A stretch of 48,102 bases of DNA. It comes from a virus. The notes under the pieces were generated by a model. That model saw only the letters and a list, made by a program, of their open reading frames with translations. It made no database searches and was not told the origin of the DNA. The stretch lies in IMG/VR virus record IMGVR_UViG_3300031364_000004, positions 1 to 48,102 of that record; one strand, given 5' to 3'. This document shows, in pieces, positions 1,245 to 24,688 of the stretch (position 1 is the first letter of the stretch; every line of letters starts with the position of its first letter). The translations under genes were made by a program, and so were the position numbers.

Positions 1245-2782
1245 AATGCCCTTTTCCTCAATTGTAGTTCCTCTCTGGTCTTTTTGTCTATAGTAATAGC
1301 TTGTTCTATTTGTAGTATATAGCCAGCCGTCAGATTGTCCACTGCATCGTCATGGTCTTTTCCCGATCCGTCAAATGTTTCTATTTCTTCAAGCCAGGAT
1401 TTATTCCAATCACCTCTTATTACGTGTACATGTTTCGGGGCTTCGAAAATTGGTTCAAGCGGCAATGCTCTTACTGCTTTATCAATTTTTCCACAGTCAA
1501 CTTTTTCCCATTTATAATCAGGAATATTTTGTTTTAAATAATAATATGCATCCTTTGCATCAATGCTTGATTCTACAGCATGGATTATAAAATGTCCTTT
1601 CATTTTTGTTTTCAGTTTTATTTTTCTGTCTCTCTCTGGTGCATTTTCTCTGAACCGTGCCCGGTCAAATACCCATAAATGAGGTACAGGATCACCAATC
1701 CTTCTTTCAAATGCCAATTCAGTTCCGCTTGTATAATCTGGATCATCCCCGGAGCGTTCTTTTGCTGTATGCGCCATATCCCACATTTGCACTCTCTTTA
1801 ATTGTCTGTAGTTCGGAATTACCGGATCATCAGGATTGTGAAATATAATTCCTACTGTTGAAAATACTGCTCCTTTTTTATGTTTTGGATCACAGTCCAT
1901 TAAAGCCTTTGATGAATATATTCCAAGTGTGGCATATTGTTCTTCATACCATTTATCTTTGTATCTTTCTGGAAAAAGATATTTTCCAAGATATTTACCA
2001 GGACCCTTATAATCAGAAGCACGCGCAGGGAAAGATAAAGATTCAAAATGCGGAAAAAGCGGATCTCTTTCCATTGCATCTTCAATCCTTCCGTGTGGAT
2101 CGTCCCAGTGCCAAATTGTAGAAAGCAGTATAACAATGTGAACGTCTGCAAGCCTTGTCATTAAATCGTCTGTAAATGCTTCCCATACTTTATCTCTGAT
2201 TGTTTTAGACTCTGAATCGGCACGCCCTGAAATGGGATCATCAATAAGAACAAGGTGACCGCCGGACCCAGTTATACCAGAAGACAACCCAGATCCGTAT
2301 AATTTTCCATATAAAGGTTCTTTTGTGGTTTTATCAATAAGTTCCCAATATGCCTTTGCATTCGATTCTTTTGATAATGCAAGGTCTGGATATAGTTCGG
2401 CGTATTTTGCTGAACGAAAAATATTTCTTGCATCTGAGGTAAATTTTTGTGTCAGATCTGCTTTATATGTTGTCGCCAACACTTCACAATTTGGAAACTC
2501 TCCAAGAAAATGAGGCGGCAAATATCTCGATAACATATCTGATTTCCCGCTTCTATGATGGATAGAAACTTTCAAATATGTTGATTTACCATTTCTAAAG
2601 TCTTCAAATGCTTTATCAATTCTGTCACATATTATTTTTGTATGAAATCCATGAATAAACGATTCGCTGGTTTTCATCCAGCAGTAATCTATGAAATCAA
2701 TATGATGTTTTCTTGCTCTTTCCCTTTCTTCAGCTTCCAGCAGTTCAAGCAGTTCAATTTCTTCAGCCTCAGTCAAGGGCAT
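1241..2782 (-). CDS. terL: Terminase large subunit
   Basis: This 513-residue protein is the ATPase and nuclease that packages phage DNA into the prohead. The N-terminal ATPase shows a Walker A-like HHRSGKSD near residue 76 and Walker B HLVLIDDP near residue 175. The C-terminal RNase H-like nuclease shows acidic positions in WDMAHT, VESSIDAKDAYYYL and DHDDAVDNL. The length is normal for the family. It starts immediately after the small subunit stop. The packaging strategy (cos or headful) cannot be decided here. Confidence 0.95.
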   Translation of the reverse strand: MPLTEAEEIELLELLEAEERERARKHHIDFIDYCWMKTSESFIHGFHTKIICDRIDKAFEDFRNGKSTYLKVSIHHRSGKSDMLSRYLPPHFLGEFPNCEVLATTYKADLTQKFTSDARNIFRSAKYAELYPDLALSKESNAKAYWELIDKTTKEPLYGKLYGSGLSSGITGSGGHLVLIDDPISGRADSESKTIRDKVWEAFTDDLMTRLADVHIVILLSTIWHWDDPHGRIEDAMERDPLFPHFESLSFPARASDYKGPGKYLGKYLFPERYKDKWYEEQYATLGIYSSKALMDCDPKHKKGAVFSTVGIIFHNPDDPVIPNYRQLKRVQMWDMAHTAKERSGDDPDYTSGTELAFERRIGDPVPHLWVFDRARFRENAPERDRKIKLKTKMKGHFIIHAVESSIDAKDAYYYLKQNIPDYKWEKVDCGKIDKAVRALPLEPIFEAPKHVHVIRGDWNKSWLEEIETFDGSGKDHDDAVDNLTAGYILQIEQAITIDKKTREELQLRKRAL

Positions 2783-3316
2783 TTATTTGTCCTTTTTTTC
2801 CAGCAGATAGGCAAGACGTTCTCTCCGTGCTTCAGCATCCATTTTTTCTGATTTCGACTGTTTAACCGCCGGTCCATCATTGCCGAGAATAGCCAAATAC
2901 TTACCAAGCAATTCAAGGGCTTTTGTTTTTGATTCGAGCTTTACGCTGATATTGGTTCCGGTCGTATTTGTTGTCTGTGATACTTCACTGATTGCATAAG
3001 CGGTATCGTTGTCTATTTTTTTAGATGATTTCAGGTTTACATGATCATCATCAAATTCAGCGATCTTCCGAATATCTGACTTGGCAATCCTCAAAACGTT
3101 CTGCAGCCATTCAAGAGTAATCTGTTCGGAGTCAGAAAGCATTGCTTTTATTTTTTCCTGTATATGATTTTTTATATATGGTTTATTAAGGTTTTCATAA
3201 GCCTGAGCGTTAGCGCTTTTTTTTGAATACCCCGCTTTAATTGCTGCCTGTAGGCCGTTGAAACCGTTCTCGATATAATATTGACAGAATAATATCTGTT
3301 TTGTAGTCATTTTCAT
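2783..3316 (-). CDS. terS: Terminase small subunit
   Basis: The protein has 177 residues from the chosen start. The N-terminal segment MTTKQILFCQYYIENGFNGL followed by QAAIKAGYSKKSANAQAYE is the helix-turn-helix DNA-recognition domain of Terminase_2-type small subunits. The C-terminal part is polar and helical, as expected for the oligomer ring and large-subunit contact. I chose the ATG at 3316 rather than an upstream in-frame one at 3346 because AAGGA lies 8 bases before it and it starts just after the previous stop at 3318. TerL follows with no gap. Confidence 0.93.
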   Translation of the reverse strand: MKMTTKQILFCQYYIENGFNGLQAAIKAGYSKKSANAQAYENLNKPYIKNHIQEKIKAMLSDSEQITLEWLQNVLRIAKSDIRKIAEFDDDHVNLKSSKKIDNDTAYAISEVSQTTNTTGTNISVKLESKTKALELLGKYLAILGNDGPAVKQSKSEKMDAEARRERLAYLLEKKDK

Positions 3317-3317
3317 A

Positions 3318-3515
3318 TCATATTTCCTTACGCTTTGAATCCGCATTTAATAGCTTTACTATTCTTTCAGCGTCTTTTTGTTCAAAGCATTCACATACAG
3401 CCATGCAATTATATTTATCCTCTCTTTCACTATCAACTACCGAATATTTAAAACAACATGAATGCCCTGCTCTGCTTGTATTATCTATATAATATCTATG
3501 CTTTTTCTTTTTCAT
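3318..3515 (-). CDS. Hypothetical protein, Cys-rich
   Basis: This 65-residue protein begins MKKKKHRYYIDNTSRAGHSC and has a good ribosome site (AAAGGAGAACCGG). It carries several cysteines (SCCF, NCMAVCEC). The C-terminal CECFEQKDAERIVKLLNAD resembles the last strand-helix of the upstream neighbour (AYCQNQEYAEMITDLLNRS), so the two may be diverged relatives. Function is unknown. Confidence 0.7.
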   Translation of the reverse strand: MKKKKHRYYIDNTSRAGHSCCFKYSVVDSEREDKYNCMAVCECFEQKDAERIVKLLNADSKRKEI

Positions 3516-3795
3516 CCGGTTCTCCTTTTGATAAATTGCTTCTATTCAATAGATCGGTAATCATTTCCGCATATTCCTGATTCTGACAATATGCAATTAT
3601 TTCAAGATATTTATTATCAGAAATTTTTATTGCCGTTTCCTTATTTCTCGGTTCTTTTGTTTCTCTGCATATGGTTGGATTGTATTCAATTGATTTTTCC
3701 ACAAAATTAACAATTTCTTCTTTTCTGTATTTGCTTTCTGGAAAATAAAAACCTGTTATTATTTTAAATTCATCATTCAATTTTGGTTTCTTCAT
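3496..3795 (-). CDS. Hypothetical protein
   Basis: This 99-residue hydrophilic protein starts MKKPKLNDEF after a GGGAGAATTAT ribosome site. The C-terminal segment LEIIAYCQNQEYAEMITDLL matches the pattern of the next gene. It is the first gene after the putative promoter at 3812-3842, so it may open the terminase transcript. It overlaps the next gene by 20 bases. No known family was recognised. Confidence 0.7.
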   Translation of the reverse strand: MKKPKLNDEFKIITGFYFPESKYRKEEIVNFVEKSIEYNPTICRETKEPRNKETAIKISDNKYLEIIAYCQNQEYAEMITDLLNRSNLSKGEPDEKEKA

Positions 3796-3811
3796 ATAAT
3801 TCTCCCTTTTC

Positions 3812-3842
3812 AGTATACCACAAGTTAAGCATTTTTTGTAAA
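3812..3842 (-). promoter_or_regulatory. Putative late promoter, extended -10
   Basis: The minus strand reads TTTACA, 19 bases, then TATACT preceded by TGG, which is an extended -10 (TGnTATACT). It lies in the only gap (47 bases) between the membrane protein ending at 3843 and the gene starting at 3795. It could start the terminase and structural transcript. The 19-base spacer is longer than usual. Confidence 0.45.
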
Positions 3843-4034
3843 TTATTTTTTATCAATTTTTGATATCCATAATACAAAGAATGAAAATAATACCGTTGCA
3901 GGCCAGAGAATTGAAAGCATTATATGGATATAAAAGGGCAGCTTTCGACTTTGCCTGTCATTGACATCTGTATAGATTGTGAATGCAAGCATTGCGATTG
4001 ATAAGACTACATAAATTATTATAAAAATTATCAT
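3843..4034 (-). CDS. Small two-helix membrane protein
   Basis: The protein has 63 residues and two clear hydrophobic helices, one at residues 1-22 and one around 34-58, joined by a polar loop TDVNDRQSRKLP. It ends with a Lys-rich tail. Length and topology resemble small phage membrane proteins such as class II holins, but the position upstream of terminase, away from the lysis genes, gives no direct support. Function is unknown. Confidence 0.65.
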   Translation of the reverse strand: MIIFIIIYVVLSIAMLAFTIYTDVNDRQSRKLPFYIHIMLSILWPATVLFSFFVLWISKIDKK

Positions 4035-4037
4035 TTG

Positions 4038-4277
4038 TTACTCCTTAATATTTATTAAACATCTTATACACATTGCAGCCGTTTGAATAAGTTCGTTTTT
4101 TATATCTTCAATTGTTTTATCTTCATATACACAATTTAGTGCTGCTCTTATTGCTTCTCCTGCTTCTTCATTCATAATTGATACTTGATGAATTATATCA
4201 CTCGGCCAATATGGATGTTTTTTAATAGCTGATTTTAATTCCTTAAGTATTAAAGTATTTATATTGTCTATTTTCAA
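4038..4277 (-). CDS. MazG-like nucleotide pyrophosphohydrolase
   Basis: This 79-residue all-alpha protein carries MNEEAGEAIRAAL and NELIQTAAMCIRCL, the paired acidic helices that bind Mg2+ and NTP in the MazG/dUTPase-type all-alpha pyrophosphatases. The second helix has ELIQ where EXXD is usual, so catalysis may be weakened. Known relatives in phages hydrolyse NTPs, dNTPs or alarmone precursors. It is coupled by ATGA to the helicase-methyltransferase gene. Confidence 0.7.
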   Translation of the reverse strand: MKIDNINTLILKELKSAIKKHPYWPSDIIHQVSIMNEEAGEAIRAALNCVYEDKTIEDIKNELIQTAAMCIRCLINIKE

Positions 4278-6505
4278 AACAGCCTCCCCTTTTTAGTTTC
4301 ATTCACTGCAGCAGCAAGGTTTTTTACAGCTTGATTATAATATGATTCTTTAAGTTCAATACCAATATATCTACGATTCATTTTTATGGCTTCATATCCT
4401 TCAGATCCTATTCCAGCAAAAGGACTTAATACAATATCGCCCTCAAGTGACCATAACTGCAAAGCCCTATGAATTACTTGTAACTGTAATGGACAAATAT
4501 GCCGTTCATCTTTTTCGTCTCTTGCAGACCTATGCTGTAATGTATCGCTTGGATTTATATCGGTCCATATTGGAGAAGCATATCTTTGCCATACATCAAT
4601 TGAATATCGTCCCTTTCCTATTTCTTCCGAAGCATCACCGACATAATGATCAAATTCGCCTTCTATCGGTTTCGGGTTTTCTCCGGGCTTTCTCATAGTT
4701 ACCAGATAATCAGGTATTCCTTGCCTGGACATTGCCGAATCTTTTACAATTTGCTTGTGAAGCAATCCAAGTGCCTTAGTTCGCTGCATTGCTATTACAG
4801 GATCTTTCCATATTACAACTTCTGAATGATAAATAAATCCTTCTTCCTGATACATTTTTATAAGTTCACCACGGAAATCTACTATTCCGATATATCCATC
4901 ATTTGTTTTAGACGTTGGTAAATTCATACAATGAAATGAAAGCAATCTACCGGGCATCAAAGTCCGGAATTGTTCTTTTACCAAATATTTGTAATGATCA
5001 TAAAATTCACTTCTTGATTTTGAATTACCCATATCCTTATTAGAATTTGAGTATGTATACAATGAGGCAAAAGGTGGAGAAAATATAGAATATCCGATTG
5101 AATTATCTTTAATTTTATTTATATGAATTTCCACAGTATCACCAAGATACATCATCCATCCTTTGCCTTGCGTTTTATGTTCCTTATATTCTGTTTTAGT
5201 TTTTTCCATTCCCCTAATGTTAAGCTCGTTTAGTGTATGCATATTTTTCACCATTTCCTCAGCCATTATCATTGCGTCTTTCTCCTTTCGTTCAATATTT
5301 TTTACTATAGCCCCCTCAAGCTGTGAAACTATTATTTTAACATTGACCTTTTTCTCCTGTCCGAATCTCCAGCACCTTCTCACTGCTTGATAATATTGTT
5401 CATAACTATCTGATAACCCAACAAATGCTATATTATGACAAATCTGATAATTCATACCATATCCGAAAATTGACGGTTTACTTACCAAACATTTTATTTT
5501 TCCGGCCGCAAAATCATGAGCTGATTTTTTCTTATGTTCTTCAGAATCGCTCCCCTTAACTTCAATACAATCGTTTATTGCTTTTTTTAATGCAGCTGAT
5601 TCATCATTAAGATTACACCACACAAGCCATATTTCATCAGATGCATTTATAATTTTTGCGCACATATTAACTCTATCATTAATTGTCTTTTTCCTTGCCT
5701 GTTGTCTTTCCTGTAGTGTTTGCGCTTCCATGGGGAATAAATAACCGTCTTGTATTTCTTCTGTTTCACATGTTAATTGCTTAATAGTTAATTCTGGCAA
5801 AATAAACTTTCCATCCTTATAGCCCAAATCTGACGGCTTTCTTATCATTACGGCCCAGGAACATACCCATTTCCAATATTCACTTTCTGCATGTCCTTTT
5901 AATCTCCATTTTTGAGTTTCTCCTCCATCATGAACAAAAAACATTGATAGCATTTCTGTCCTGGCCATAGCGCCAACAAACTCAGCATGATTACCAAGCT
6001 CCATAAAATCATTCGGTGCGGGGGTTGCCGTAAATGCATATCTAAACGGTATTTCCTTTGTATTATTAATTATATAATTCCTATATTTACCAGTATAAGA
6101 TTTTAATATTGACGATTCATCGAGAATAATACAGTCCAATTCAGAAAGATTAAATTTTTCTATTCTCTCATAATTAGTTATTGTTATTTTATTTCTCAAT
6201 ATGCCATCATTAGAGTAATCAATATCCGAAACATGGAATTTATCTGCTTCATGCAAGGTTTGATCTGATACAGCAAGTGGAGCAACTATTAAAATTTTTC
6301 CAAGAATACACTTTGCTACCTCTAACTGCATCGGCGTTTTCCCCATGCCACAATCGGCAAAAACACAAGCCCGCCCTCGTCTTAAAGCCCATTTACAAAT
6401 ATCAGATTGAAAATCAAATAACATTGGATTTAATTCGGGTATTTTATTAAGTCCCGTTGGTATTTCTTCAATAGTCTTTTTTGTTAAAAATTCCTTATAA
6501 TCCAT
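4274..6505 (-). CDS. SNF2-type helicase fused to DNA amino-methyltransferase
   Basis: The protein has 743 residues and two parts. Residues about 1-440 are a superfamily 2 helicase/translocase: Walker A FADCGMGKTP, motif II LDESS, motif III TATPAPND and motif VI QAVRRCWRFGQ. Residues about 455-743 are a methyltransferase in the beta-class order, with catalytic SPPF first and the S-adenosylmethionine loop PFAGIGSEGYEA near the C-terminus. SPPF favours N4-cytosine methylation, though N6-adenine is possible. There is no nuclease motif, so this is not a complete restriction enzyme. P1 DarB is a known phage protein combining helicase and methyltransferase domains. A role in protecting phage DNA is inferred. 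Confidence 0.88.
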   Translation of the reverse strand: MDYKEFLTKKTIEEIPTGLNKIPELNPMLFDFQSDICKWALRRGRACVFADCGMGKTPMQLEVAKCILGKILIVAPLAVSDQTLHEADKFHVSDIDYSNDGILRNKITITNYERIEKFNLSELDCIILDESSILKSYTGKYRNYIINNTKEIPFRYAFTATPAPNDFMELGNHAEFVGAMARTEMLSMFFVHDGGETQKWRLKGHAESEYWKWVCSWAVMIRKPSDLGYKDGKFILPELTIKQLTCETEEIQDGYLFPMEAQTLQERQQARKKTINDRVNMCAKIINASDEIWLVWCNLNDESAALKKAINDCIEVKGSDSEEHKKKSAHDFAAGKIKCLVSKPSIFGYGMNYQICHNIAFVGLSDSYEQYYQAVRRCWRFGQEKKVNVKIIVSQLEGAIVKNIERKEKDAMIMAEEMVKNMHTLNELNIRGMEKTKTEYKEHKTQGKGWMMYLGDTVEIHINKIKDNSIGYSIFSPPFASLYTYSNSNKDMGNSKSRSEFYDHYKYLVKEQFRTLMPGRLLSFHCMNLPTSKTNDGYIGIVDFRGELIKMYQEEGFIYHSEVVIWKDPVIAMQRTKALGLLHKQIVKDSAMSRQGIPDYLVTMRKPGENPKPIEGEFDHYVGDASEEIGKGRYSIDVWQRYASPIWTDINPSDTLQHRSARDEKDERHICPLQLQVIHRALQLWSLEGDIVLSPFAGIGSEGYEAIKMNRRYIGIELKESYYNQAVKNLAAAVNETKKGRLF

Positions 6506-6524
6506 TATTCCCCCTTGTTATTTA

Positions 6525-6689
6525 CTATGGCCCGTTTTTTCCGTCTTCTATATCTGACAACATATAAAAAGACATAAAACCCTCGCGCCAGCTTATTTTA
6601 ACAGTACTTGATAAAGCGTCGTCTATCTCAATCATATCAAGTAAGAGGCTATTCCCATCTCTCGGTGTCTTCGTTATATTTTTCAACAC
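6525..6689 (-). CDS. Possible small protein, GTG start
   Basis: A 54-codon frame follows the gene at 6649-6810 and overlaps it by 41 bases. It opens with GTG TTG and reads coherently (DGNSLLLDMIEIDDALSSTV, then KISWREGFMSFYML). A weak AGG lies upstream. An in-frame ATG at 6635 would avoid most of the overlap but has no visible ribosome site. Sequence character supports coding; the start is uncertain. Confidence 0.4.
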   Translation of the reverse strand: MLKNITKTPRDGNSLLLDMIEIDDALSSTVKISWREGFMSFYMLSDIEDGKNGP

Positions 6690-6810
6690 TTACCTGATTT
6701 TCCATATCAACATTTTCTAATGATTCAACGAAATCTTCAATTGCTTCATATTCTGTTTCATATTCTCCCTCAATATAATCATCATCATAGCCAACTCTAA
6801 AATATGGCAT
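6649..6810 (-). CDS. Small acidic protein
   Basis: This 53-residue protein begins MPYFRVGYDDDYIEGEYETE. It has a GAGGGGAAG ribosome site before the ATG. It is strongly acidic, with repeated Y-E pairs, and may be a DNA mimic or simply a small soluble protein. No family was recognised. Confidence 0.6.
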   Translation of the reverse strand: MPYFRVGYDDDYIEGEYETEYEAIEDFVESLENVDMENQVSVEKYNEDTERWE

Positions 6811-6837
6811 AAAATCTTCCCCTCGGCTTGCCTGGCC

Positions 6838-6854
6838 GGTGTACTCGGTGCTAA
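6838..6854. repeat. Junction repeat, copy 1
   Basis: The minus strand reads TTAGCACCGAGTACACC. The same sequence with one change is at 7205-7221, and a shorter form (TTAGCACCGAT) is at 7516-7526. In copies 1 and 2 the TAG is the stop codon of the upstream gene. The repeats mark successive gene junctions and suggest cassette-like gene gain. Confidence 0.75.
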
Positions 6855-7189
6855 ATATTCATTTTTATAACAATTGCCTTCTGTATCTTGTCAAGCGGAT
6901 TAGCCTTTTCAGCTTCTTCATAACTTTCAAAAAGTTCAAGATAATCGGTTAAATGTTCAATATAATCATCATAATCGTCAAAGATATAATTATCATAATC
7001 GCCAAAGATATAATCGTCTGTTTCTATCCATTCCCCAACTTTTACTATGCTTATATCTTGTGCTGTAAAAGCGTAATCTGCAAGCAGTGTATCATTGCTG
7101 ACAAAAATCTTAACTGGATAATCTGGATACTTTTGCATAAGTTCATAAACTTCTTTTATCTTTTCTCTATTATCTTTATTATTATTCAT
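6851..7189 (-). CDS. Acidic hypothetical protein with DDY repeats
   Basis: This 112-residue protein starts MNNNKDNREKIKEVYELMQK after AAGGAGGAAGGA. The middle has a short tandem repeat, DYIFGDYDNYIFDDYDDYI, encoded by repeated ATAATC-type triplets. The overall charge is acidic. The stop codon lies inside a repeated junction sequence (6838-6854). Function is unknown. Confidence 0.7.
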   Translation of the reverse strand: MNNNKDNREKIKEVYELMQKYPDYPVKIFVSNDTLLADYAFTAQDISIVKVGEWIETDDYIFGDYDNYIFDDYDDYIEHLTDYLELFESYEEAEKANPLDKIQKAIVIKMNI

Positions 7190-8417: not shown

Positions 8418-8419
8418 TT

Positions 8420-8490
8420 TGCCGGATGTGGTGATCGAACCCACTCCCTCAGATTTTCAGTCTGGTGCGCTACCATTACGCTAACCCGGC
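8420..8490 (-). tRNA. tRNA-Phe (GAA)
   Basis: The minus strand folds as a cloverleaf: acceptor GCCGGGT/ATCCGGC (one G-U), D-stem GCGT/GCGC with a 7-base loop, anticodon loop CTGAAAA giving GAA, a 4-base variable loop and T-loop TTCGATC. Two mismatches stand out: C27-A43 at the base of the anticodon stem and G53-A61 in the T-stem. No CCA is encoded; A73 follows. It is probably functional, but decay is possible. Confidence 0.75.
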
Positions 8491-8496
8491 AGATCT

Positions 8497-12746: not shown

Positions 12747-12925
12747 TCCTCTTTCTCCTTTGGCTTGTCCTTGAGGCGACAGGAAGTGAATAGTTCTGTG
12801 GTATTAGCAAATCTGTAATCATACATGCAACTAAACTCACCAGGCATATTTGTTACTCTGATATACGGGCAAATACCATTTCTTGTGTTTGCTTTCATGC
12901 AGCTTTCAACTTCGATTATTTTCAT
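12743..12925 (-). CDS. Cys-containing small protein
   Basis: This 60-residue protein begins MKIIEVESCMKANTRNGICP. A longer open frame exists upstream but overlaps the PAPS-reductase-like gene entirely, so I use the ATG at 12925, which follows GGGCGGCGAAGT. Cysteines at about 9, 19, 34 and 49 could bind a metal. The tail is Lys/Glu-rich. Family unknown. Confidence 0.65.
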   Translation of the reverse strand: MKIIEVESCMKANTRNGICPYIRVTNMPGEFSCMYDYRFANTTELFTSCRLKDKPKEKEE

Positions 12926-13664
12926 ACTTCGCCGCCCTTTTTTTTTCCGAAAACAATTCCAATTGCGTATCATATTCTTTATAAATTCGGGTATAATCTT
13001 CAATTCTGGTATAATCCATACGAAAGCTATTCCATGATTTATTTTGCATTTCCTCAAGTCTTTTCCATAATTTAGGAAAATAAAGATATAGTTTGTGGAG
13101 TTCTGAGTCTTTTTGCAGCGGACAACACCAGCAAGATACACGCTTAAAATGTTGATATAACCCTAACCAATTAAAGCCCCTTTCATAACAAAATGCCAGC
13201 GCCTCAGATTCTGTCATATCAATATCTATCAGCGGGAATTTAATATTTATTCCGCTGTTAATTTTTCTTTGAAGATTTTTGCTACCTGTTCTTTTAAGTT
13301 CATCGCTTGCAAATCCTATATATACCGTGTCACCTTTTGAGCTATATTTATCAAGAGCATTTGCTTTTTCTCTTGTACACCACCGACGCGTTGGTGATGG
13401 AAAGCCAAATGCTTTTTTCCCTTTATTTGGCCCTCTTGTGATAATGTGTTCAAACGCCAAATAATCAAAACTTTTGCGTGATGTTACTCTTGTAATTTTC
13501 ATTCCGATATATTTTTCAACCGACTTAATGTGATCATACATTTGCGGAAATTCCCATGTTTCTGCATCAAACCAAAGTATTTTATCAATCTCCATTTTGT
13601 TTTCTACCATATATATCAGCATGGCGGTAGAATCTTTCCCTCCAGAAAAATTAACAATTTTCAT
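12906..13664 (-). CDS. PAPS reductase-like PP-loop protein
   Basis: The protein has 252 residues. MKIVNFSGGKDSTAMLIYMV is the pyrophosphate-binding PP-loop (SGGKDST) of adenine nucleotide alpha hydrolases. RRWCTREKANAL and CWCCPLQKDSEL resemble the Cys motifs of PAPS-reductase/DndC-type proteins. These occur often in phages, in most cases with unknown substrates; DndC relatives act in DNA phosphorothioation but no other dnd gene is here. It overlaps the next gene by 20 bases. Confidence 0.82.
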   Translation of the reverse strand: MKIVNFSGGKDSTAMLIYMVENKMEIDKILWFDAETWEFPQMYDHIKSVEKYIGMKITRVTSRKSFDYLAFEHIITRGPNKGKKAFGFPSPTRRWCTREKANALDKYSSKGDTVYIGFASDELKRTGSKNLQRKINSGINIKFPLIDIDMTESEALAFCYERGFNWLGLYQHFKRVSCWCCPLQKDSELHKLYLYFPKLWKRLEEMQNKSWNSFRMDYTRIEDYTRIYKEYDTQLELFSEKKRAAKYENNRS

Positions 13665-23488: not shown

Positions 23489-23635
23489 TCAATCCCACAT
23501 AATAAGCGCGTCAATCATCTTTGCCATAAGCCGACATTCGCGCGCTGCTTCTGCATACCATCTGACCGCTTCTTTTTTACGGCCCCGCGCTTCTGCGCGT
23601 TCTGCTTTTATAATGCAGTATCCTTTGTTGGTCAT
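23489..23635 (-). CDS. 48-residue TPR-like protein
   Basis: MTNKGYCIIKAERAEARGRK then KEAVRWYAEAARECRLMAK forms a helix pair like one TPR unit. The ATG at 23635 follows AAGGGGGACAAT; a longer upstream frame would run through a hammerhead ribozyme and is rejected. It is the gene just downstream of that ribozyme. Confidence 0.6.
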   Translation of the reverse strand: MTNKGYCIIKAERAEARGRKKEAVRWYAEAARECRLMAKMIDALIMWD

Positions 23636-23651
23636 ATTGTCCCCCTTGTTA

Positions 23652-23700
23652 TCGCTGACGGGCCGAAGCCCGTTTCGTCCTTCTGGACTCATCAGAGCGA
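23652..23700 (-). ncRNA. Hammerhead ribozyme 2 (type I)
   Basis: In order the minus strand reads: stem I TCGCT, core CTGATGA, stem II GTCC-AGAA-GGAC, core GAAA, stem III CGGGC-TTCG-GCCCG, TC, stem I AGCGA. All core bases match the hammerhead consensus and all stems pair perfectly. Cleavage is predicted between 23657 and 23656, after GTC. It starts one base past the stop codon of the 63-residue gene and ends 17 bases before the next ATG, so cleavage would separate the two messages and leave a short 5'-OH leader with the ribosome site. Confidence 0.93.
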
Positions 23701-23701
23701 T

Positions 23702-23893
23702 TTAATAAAAGGCACCGGGAAAATGTGCACTTAAATAGTCGAGTAATTTTGCATCAGCGGTTTTGATTGTATCTATCTCGTCCAGCGATTTTTTTTGGTT
23801 TTCAAGCCATGCAAAAACTACTTCGATAATTGGCAGATATTTTTCTTTTACTTGGTTCTCTTCTGCCGGTCTTTCTATAATATCCTTTGTCAT
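23702..23893 (-). CDS. Small hypothetical protein
   Basis: This 63-residue protein starts MTKDIIERPAEENQVKEKYL. The ATG at 23893 follows AAGGGGGACGGAA; an upstream in-frame start at 23932 lies in a structured spacer and has no such site. The middle is helical (IIEVVFAWLENQKKSLDEID). Hammerhead 2 follows one base after its stop. Confidence 0.65.
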   Translation of the reverse strand: MTKDIIERPAEENQVKEKYLPIIEVVFAWLENQKKSLDEIDTIKTADAKLLDYLSAHFPGAFY

Positions 23894-24015
23894 TTCCGTC
23901 CCCCTTAATAACCTTTCGTCTGTATTTTTCAATCGGGCTTCTTACCGACTTTGGCTACATTAACCCCCTTTCGGGGGCAGTTATTAAGGCCCGGAATCCG
24001 GGCCGCTTTAACTGA
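23894..24015 (-). other. Structured spacer with three hairpins and an anti-leader
   Basis: The minus strand contains GGCCCGG-ATT-CCGGGCC, CCCCC-GAAA-GGGGG and AA(G)TCGG...CCGATT in tandem. CCTTAATAAC (23980-23989) is the exact complement of GTTATTAAGG (23903-23912), which forms the leader and ribosome site of the 63-residue gene. It could hide that site, or sites in related leaders at 24398 and 24637. It has no CTGANGA core, so it is not a hammerhead. Confidence 0.5.
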
Positions 24016-24390
24016 CTAAACCAATAATCCTGATTGCTCAATTGTTGATAGCAGCTGTTTAATCTTGTCTGCTTTCGCGTTCGCAAATTCTACAATATAT
24101 CGGTAAGGTAAAATAGTTATACCTTTTTCAGATTTTTTTGGTTTTCTCTGATAAGACAGCATAACGTCAATAGCAGTTAAATCTGCATGAATTGCATTTA
24201 CAGCAGCGTTTAATTCAAATTCATCTCGCATCAACTTAGAGATTGTTGCTGCAATATTTTTGATAGCTTCTGAAATATCGTCGTGATGATCTGCCATTCC
24301 AGATCCTTTGAAAATGCTCCGCAATTGATCTCTTAAAAATTCTTCTGTCATTTCTCTAAAATCGTTAATCTTAATTTTTCTTGTACCCAT
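24016..24390 (-). CDS. Hypothetical early protein
   Basis: This 124-residue protein starts MGTRKIKINDFREMTEEFLR at the ATG at 24390, after AAGGAGGTGCCAA. It is helical with DDISEAIKNIAATISKLMRD and ends near a Leu-rich segment. Its leader is what remains after hammerhead 1 cleavage. No family recognised. Confidence 0.65.
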   Translation of the reverse strand: MGTRKIKINDFREMTEEFLRDQLRSIFKGSGMADHHDDISEAIKNIAATISKLMRDEFELNAAVNAIHADLTAIDVMLSYQRKPKKSEKGITILPYRYIVEFANAKADKIKQLLSTIEQSGLLV

Positions 24391-24410
24391 TTGGCACCTC
24401 CTTAATAACA

Positions 24411-24465
24411 TCCCTGACCGGGTTTCCCCGGTTTCGTCTCAATTTTCAGAGACTCGTCAGAGGGA
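24411..24465 (-). ncRNA. Hammerhead ribozyme 1 (type I)
   Basis: In order: stem I TCCCT, core CTGACGA, stem II GTCTC-TGAAAATT-GAGAC, core GAAA, stem III CCGGG-GAAA-CCCGG, TC, stem I AGGGA. It fits CUGANGA/GAAA with perfect stems. Cleavage is predicted between 24416 and 24415. It begins at the base after the TAA stop of the 54-residue gene and ends just before AAGGAGG of the next gene. Loop II (TGAAAATT) could contact the open stem I region; this is not visible from pairing. Confidence 0.93.
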
Positions 24466-24630
24466 TTATCTCCAACCAACAATCTGATTATTATCTTTCA
24501 GTCTGACTTCGTGACCACGGTCTGCCATCCAGATGAAAAAATCTTCGATTCGAGTAAAACGAACGCCAAGTCCCTTATATGGTACAATCTTCCAAATGCC
24601 ATCTTTTTTCTTTTCTACAGTCTTTGTCAT
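24466..24630 (-). CDS. First early-operon protein
   Basis: This 54-residue protein starts MTKTVEKKKDGIWKIVPYKG after GTTATTAAGGAGGTCAGAA. It is beta-rich (RFTRIEDFFIWMADRGHEVR). It lies immediately downstream of the operator-controlled promoter at 24660 and upstream of hammerhead 1. Function unknown. Confidence 0.65.
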   Translation of the reverse strand: MTKTVEKKKDGIWKIVPYKGLGVRFTRIEDFFIWMADRGHEVRLKDNNQIVGWR

Positions 24631-24659: not shown

Positions 24660-24688
24660 AATATATCACTATGTGTTATATTTATCAA
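24660..24688 (-). promoter_or_regulatory. Early promoter with embedded operator O1
   Basis: TTGATA (24683-24688), 17 bases, TATATT (24660-24665). The spacer holds AACACATAGTGA, one of three related operator copies. Start would be near 24653, before the first early gene. Binding of the Cro/CI-like protein here would shut the early operon. Confidence 0.7.

Follow-up and report, generated by a model that had tools for sequence, protein, structure and literature searches.

Clustered hammerhead ribozymes of prophages were reported by Perreault et al. (2011) to flank single genes and were proposed to process long transcripts (PMC3088659). Self-cutting was observed in vitro for tandem prophage copies, and for the Agrobacterium ones in E. 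coli as well; examples include a triple array around ardA in Agrobacterium tumefaciens as well as elements of Clostridium scindens and Azorhizobium caulinodans, described in a text that makes no mention of ribosomes or translation (PMC3088659). Hammerhead products are established to carry a 2′,3′-cyclic phosphate and a 5′-hydroxyl, and the role of bacterial and phage hammerheads has been described as unsettled (PMC6155905). The element analyzed here, termed hammerhead B, is a further example of this kind, already known from phages. As in the Perreault clusters, the hammerheads are phage-borne, lie close together (two within 815 bp, flanking a two-gene block), border single genes or short blocks, and lead to the same processing hypothesis; unlike there, the genes concerned are others, and activity is predicted from sequence, whereas it was demonstrated for the published cases (PMC3088659). 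The processing interpretation, which an initial annotation of this DNA had put forward, had thus already been proposed, with cleavage shown, in 2011 (PMC3088659).

The window, i.e. the complete stretch of DNA analyzed, is a virus record of 48,102 bases from a tailed phage (terminase, portal, head protease, tape measure) with nearly all genes on the minus strand. No relative of this phage turned up in viral contigs when the Erf-like protein, the terminase, the portal, and the 124-aa protein encoded between the two hammerheads served as queries. The latter two, run against phage records, yielded only distant portal matches, the nearest annotated ones (24–28% identical) belonging to Clostridioides, Bacillus, and Weizmannia phages. 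The phage also carries a tRNA-Phe (GAA; 8419..8491, minus strand), a phosphoadenosine phosphosulfate reductase-like protein (12906..13664, minus strand), and a fused helicase/DNA methylase protein (4274..6505, minus strand). A promoter-like site, TTGATA-17-TATATT with TG (24660..24688, minus strand), assigned by consensus match only (10 of 12 positions), is where the operon transcript plausibly starts. Small genes without a known family come first and lead to an Erf-like annealing protein; further members encode an exonuclease, a NinB-like protein, and a replication-initiation protein, and from this recombination and replication content we infer the operon to be the early region.

Hammerhead B (23701..23651, minus strand), complete by both its RF00163 match and its fold, looks like a genuine, textbook type I ribozyme predicted to cut itself. 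It exceeds the initially annotated 23700..23652 by one stem I pair. Aligned to Rfam, the RNA opens with the 5′ strand of stem I, AUCGCU (23696..23701), directly behind the TAA of the preceding gene, and continues with the core CUGAUGA (23689..23695), likewise recovered by the motif pattern. There follow stem-loop II (GUCC-AGAA-GGAC, 23677..23688), a GAA, and stem-loop III (ACGGGC-UUCG-GCCCGU, 23658..23673), which is closed by A15.1-U16.1 and topped by a stable UUCG tetraloop. The final C is C17 of the cleavage triplet GUC (23659..23657, of the NUH type), behind which the hammerhead consensus places the cut (23657/23656), as initially predicted. The downstream mRNA would begin with the 3′ strand of stem I, AGCGAU (23651..23656). 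The conserved core (CUGANGA ... GAA(A) ... U-H) is complete and surrounded by three fully paired helices, of which II and III are capped and stem I is open-ended, making this a type I element. Its minimum-energy fold is exactly the hammerhead structure (–20.7 kcal/mol, z –2.6).

The covariance-model search suggested at the outset returned a match to RF00163 (Hammerhead_1) over model positions 1–45 of 45 with 33.2 bits, corresponding to E-values of 6.4e-6 in a 2.1-kb search against all families, 1.5e-4 for the whole window against all families, and 3.5e-8 for that family alone over the window. A default Rfam scan stays silent because this score falls 0.8 below the gathering score of 34 bits, which is a curator's threshold and no property of the ribozyme. 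Thus, hammerhead B shares with the RF00163 type I elements all core positions, the three stems, the open stem I, and the GUC site, and differs from them in its score and in a small stem II loop, AGAA, for which no tertiary partner was seen: inspection by eye brought out no pseudoknot joining loop II to the flanks of stem I. Fast hammerhead cleavage at cellular Mg2+ requires a tertiary contact. The A-rich flanks of stem I in hammerhead B resemble those of the class (5′ side in 77 of 105 and 3′ side in 71 of 105 of the matches listed). Among 400 first-order simulated windows, not one contained a motif whose stems reached 5, 4, and 5 pairs, and the motif of hammerhead B is no product of chance.

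The only other match to the motif pattern in the whole window is hammerhead A (24410..24466, minus strand; RF00163 32.0 bits, E 1.7e-5), likewise of type I, with a predicted cleavage at 24416/24415. Its first A is also part of the TAA of the first operon gene (54 aa, 24466..24630, minus strand), a one-base overlap, and downstream it is followed by AAGGAGGU and the ATG at 24390. Two genes without family match, encoding 124 aa (24016..24390, minus strand) and 63 aa (23702..23893, minus strand), separate the two hammerheads, so that the second does lie two genes further on in the same operon and in the same order of stop, ribozyme, and ribosome site, as had been noted. Both cores are intact while stems and loops are quite different, implying that B is no recent copy of A. 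No further ribozyme emerged from an Rfam search of the window with E-values up to 5, and no type II hammerhead was found there. A twister type P1 (RF03160) reading of the spacer stretch 23966..23912 was rejected as too weak (23.8 bits vs. 67.2): the terminal P1 pairs are mismatched in the alignment, and by eye the loop UAAG cannot pair with GACGA, leaving the pseudoknot missing. In the surrounding spacer (24015..23894, minus strand), CCUUAAUAAC is perfectly complementary over 10 bp to GUUAUUAAGG, a leader bearing the ribosome site of the gene starting at 23893; this pairing encloses an CCCCCGAAAGGGGG hairpin and the weak twister-P1-like stretch (E 0.003, 151 bases), and the structure is possibly one that hides a ribosome site, or a decayed ribozyme. 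A near-identical leader, GTTATTAAGGRGG, precedes three successive small genes (24630, 24390, 23893), and the fourth (23635) has a similar one, GATAACAAGGGGG.

At the junction itself, the stop TAA (23704..23702) of the 63-aa gene touches the 6-bp stem I of hammerhead B, so the single base once reported between stop and ribozyme becomes a gap of 0 or 1, depending on how stem I is counted. From the cut, it is 9 nt to the ribosome site AAGGGGG (23647..23641) and 21 nt to the ATG (23635..23633) of the downstream gene (48 aa, no family match; 23489..23635, minus strand), in accordance with the initially noted position just ahead of a ribosome site. Cutting at both predicted sites would split the message into an RNA of one gene (54 aa), an RNA of two genes (124 and 63 aa), and a long polycistronic remainder headed by the 48-aa gene; hence, the anticipated division into single-gene RNAs applies to the first gene and fails for the middle piece and the remainder.

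To place these elements in a broader frame, IMG/VR viral contigs were scanned with the motif pattern (at least 120 stretches; no census). Two sets were used: a pattern set of at least 122 non-redundant matches on 107 contigs, window included and unselected for stem I, and a detector set requiring all three stems, with at least 151 non-redundant hammerheads on 100 contigs, window excluded. In the class counts, identical motifs were counted once, contig kinship was removed only in part, and gene calls in the viral loci were simple open frames. Among the 122 pattern matches listed, stem I positions 1.1–1.5 pair in 86–95%, compared to 40–43% after shuffling, and pairing just beyond the sixth pair drops below the shuffle average. 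For 66 of 144 of the matches listed, the stop of an upstream frame of at least 45 codons falls into a 10-nt slot located 3–12 nt ahead of the core, as opposed to 3–10 of ~130 at shifted positions; with one hammerhead per contig, the listed matches still give 40 of 93 vs. 2–6 of ~85. The gap from stop to stem I is –1 or 0 nt in 33 of 86 of the matches listed, and a ribosome site plus start codon follows the cut within 75 nt in 72 of 138 of them (3–24 in controls). The UGA of the core, considered as a common upstream stop, was rejected, being at chance level (34/144 vs. 28–43/~137 at control positions). Among the 77 junction ORFs flanking the matches listed, few encode known families (anti-restriction, thymidylate synthase, MazG, RusA), and head or tail families do not appear among the family matches listed. 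The highest number in one locus is eight (L113, among the matches listed); there (1330–6900), eight type I hammerheads occupy successive gene junctions, six of them with a near-identical stem-loop II. In 12 hammerhead-rich viral loci, none of the hammerheads reaches the Rfam cut-off, which is why routine annotation overlooks this gene-junction class and phage annotations under-report predicted self-cutting operons.

As no relative of the phage was found, orthologous junctions cannot be compared at the hammerhead B locus, and the proposed check for compensatory changes in related phages was possible for other phages only. An all-against-all comparison of flanking proteins from the viral loci of the survey uncovered at least 59 hammerhead pairs sharing a homologous neighbor. 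For instance, beside upstream proteins that are 75% identical (L006 and L035), GCCC/GGGC gives way to GUCC/GGAC in stem II, and stem III has an entirely different sequence that still pairs; where both flanking proteins are homologous (56% and 42%; L051 and L091), stem III is altered in compensating pairs. At such junctions, the core and its placement are kept while stems II and III vary in compensating pairs, precisely as predicted by selection for a working ribozyme. Judged by these comparisons, selection acts on the class at gene junctions, and the initial argument that differing stems around a conserved core reflect selected function is borne out at this level. Together with the positional counts, the survey shows the stop/hammerhead/ribosome-site arrangement to be common among viral sequences and, as the junction comparisons indicate, kept by selection. 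That the elements are inert or selfish remnants, mobile or decaying and devoid of a role, would agree with prokaryotic hammerhead functions being unproven (PMC6155905), and is in our opinion highly improbable given the compensating stem changes beside homologous genes, the positional bias of upstream stops, and the intact cores of two copies with such different stems.

The explanation we consider probable is that the early message cuts itself co-transcriptionally at gene junctions, which would uncouple neighboring genes. Hammerhead B lies where two co-directional early genes meet; there, the nascent RNA would fold and cut after GUC (23657) as RNA polymerase moves along. The upstream mRNA would then end in two hairpins, stem II and the UUCG-capped stem III, plus a 2′,3′-cyclic phosphate, and the downstream mRNA would start with a 5′-hydroxyl and a 21-nt leader bearing the ribosome site. 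Going by bacterial mRNA turnover in general, terminal hairpins and ends of these two chemistries would be expected to slow decay. Both new ends should withstand the routes by which mRNA degradation normally starts, with the consequence that expression and decay of neighboring genes would be uncoupled despite one shared promoter; cleavage in this phage, protection of the ends, and the resulting benefit are what we infer. Against this explanation speak the score just under the Rfam cut-off, the loop II contact that was not seen, the failure to find relatives in which this very junction is conserved, and the abutting stop, since a ribosome terminating there would sit on stem I and might hamper the ribozyme. 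A small, compact element that recurs at gene junctions makes the processing model accessible to a test by a single core mutation combined with RNA-end mapping.

In 60 of 105 of the matches listed (~57%), stem III is capped by a GNRA or UNCG tetraloop, a frequency that fits a protective 3′ end. This enrichment of stable loops, along with the failure to find an intrinsic terminator on the transcribed strand of the hammerhead B junction, would also suit an element serving mainly to make a hairpin end for the upstream mRNA or to lower downstream expression as a control of mRNA dose, the other product being incidental. We deem this unlikely, as a ribosome site regularly follows the ribozyme and the downstream product accordingly appears to be used.

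Stops abutting stem I far above expectation (the slot and gap counts given above for the matches listed) could instead point to a switch linked to translation, in which a ribosome terminating at the stop beside stem I keeps the ribozyme open, only poorly translated messages are cut, and, at hammerhead B, the cut also frees the next ribosome site. In the uncut RNA, the ribosome site after hammerhead B is computed to pair with the end of the upstream gene, and cutting lifts its computed probability of being unpaired from 0.06 to 0.79, more than in any other of the 85 cases. Over these 85 cases, however, the ribosome site is no better hidden by its upstream sequence than by a shuffled one (p = 0.11), leading us to reject a general release of the site by cutting; at hammerhead A, there is no effect (0.97 to 0.99), and an abutting stop may have no deeper reason than genome compactness, or than the conserved A beside stem I coinciding with the stop. 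Since no such hiding is seen across the class, the translation-linked variant stays a minority reading, to which we give little credence, and slightly less still to the elements acting as translation-gated cutters, with the terminating ribosome holding stem I open, cutting reporting low translation, and the cut at hammerhead B switching on the next gene. Self-cutting that uncouples neighbors remains the preferred account.

The literature searched contains neither a quantified stop-codon placement nor compensating evolution at shared junctions, nor sub-cut-off Rfam scores across the 12 hammerhead-rich loci, which is no proof of novelty. Among known phages, Cellulophaga phage phi18:3 (KC821620.1) has a type I hammerhead whose stem-loop II, GUCC-AGAA-GGAC, is identical to that of hammerhead B. 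It lies between the small genes gp50 and gp49, 7 nt past the upstream stop, in an unrelated phage with unrelated flanking genes, and stems I and III differ. This hammerhead (L129, 3995–4049) is unannotated and has an ArdA gene ~0.9 kb downstream; hammerhead B, unlike the phi18:3 region, adjoins no ArdA-like gene. Being a cultured phage, phi18:3 offers a convenient experimental model. A human gut phage contig (MT836189.1) shares loop II with hammerhead A along with a near-identical core (94% over 34 nt), stem II carrying a C-G to U-A change; unlike in the window, its upstream frame is stopped by the core UGA of the ribozyme itself, and the flanks are unrelated. Matches of hammerhead A in Streptomyces phages were set aside, since they read not as type I but as circularly permuted and type II-like. 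These phages, Salutena, Sentinel, and TrvxScott (L126, L127, and L128, ~3990–4060), carry an unannotated permuted hammerhead (GGCGAAAC...GGTC...CTGANGA) that is situated in the spacer between two small genes.
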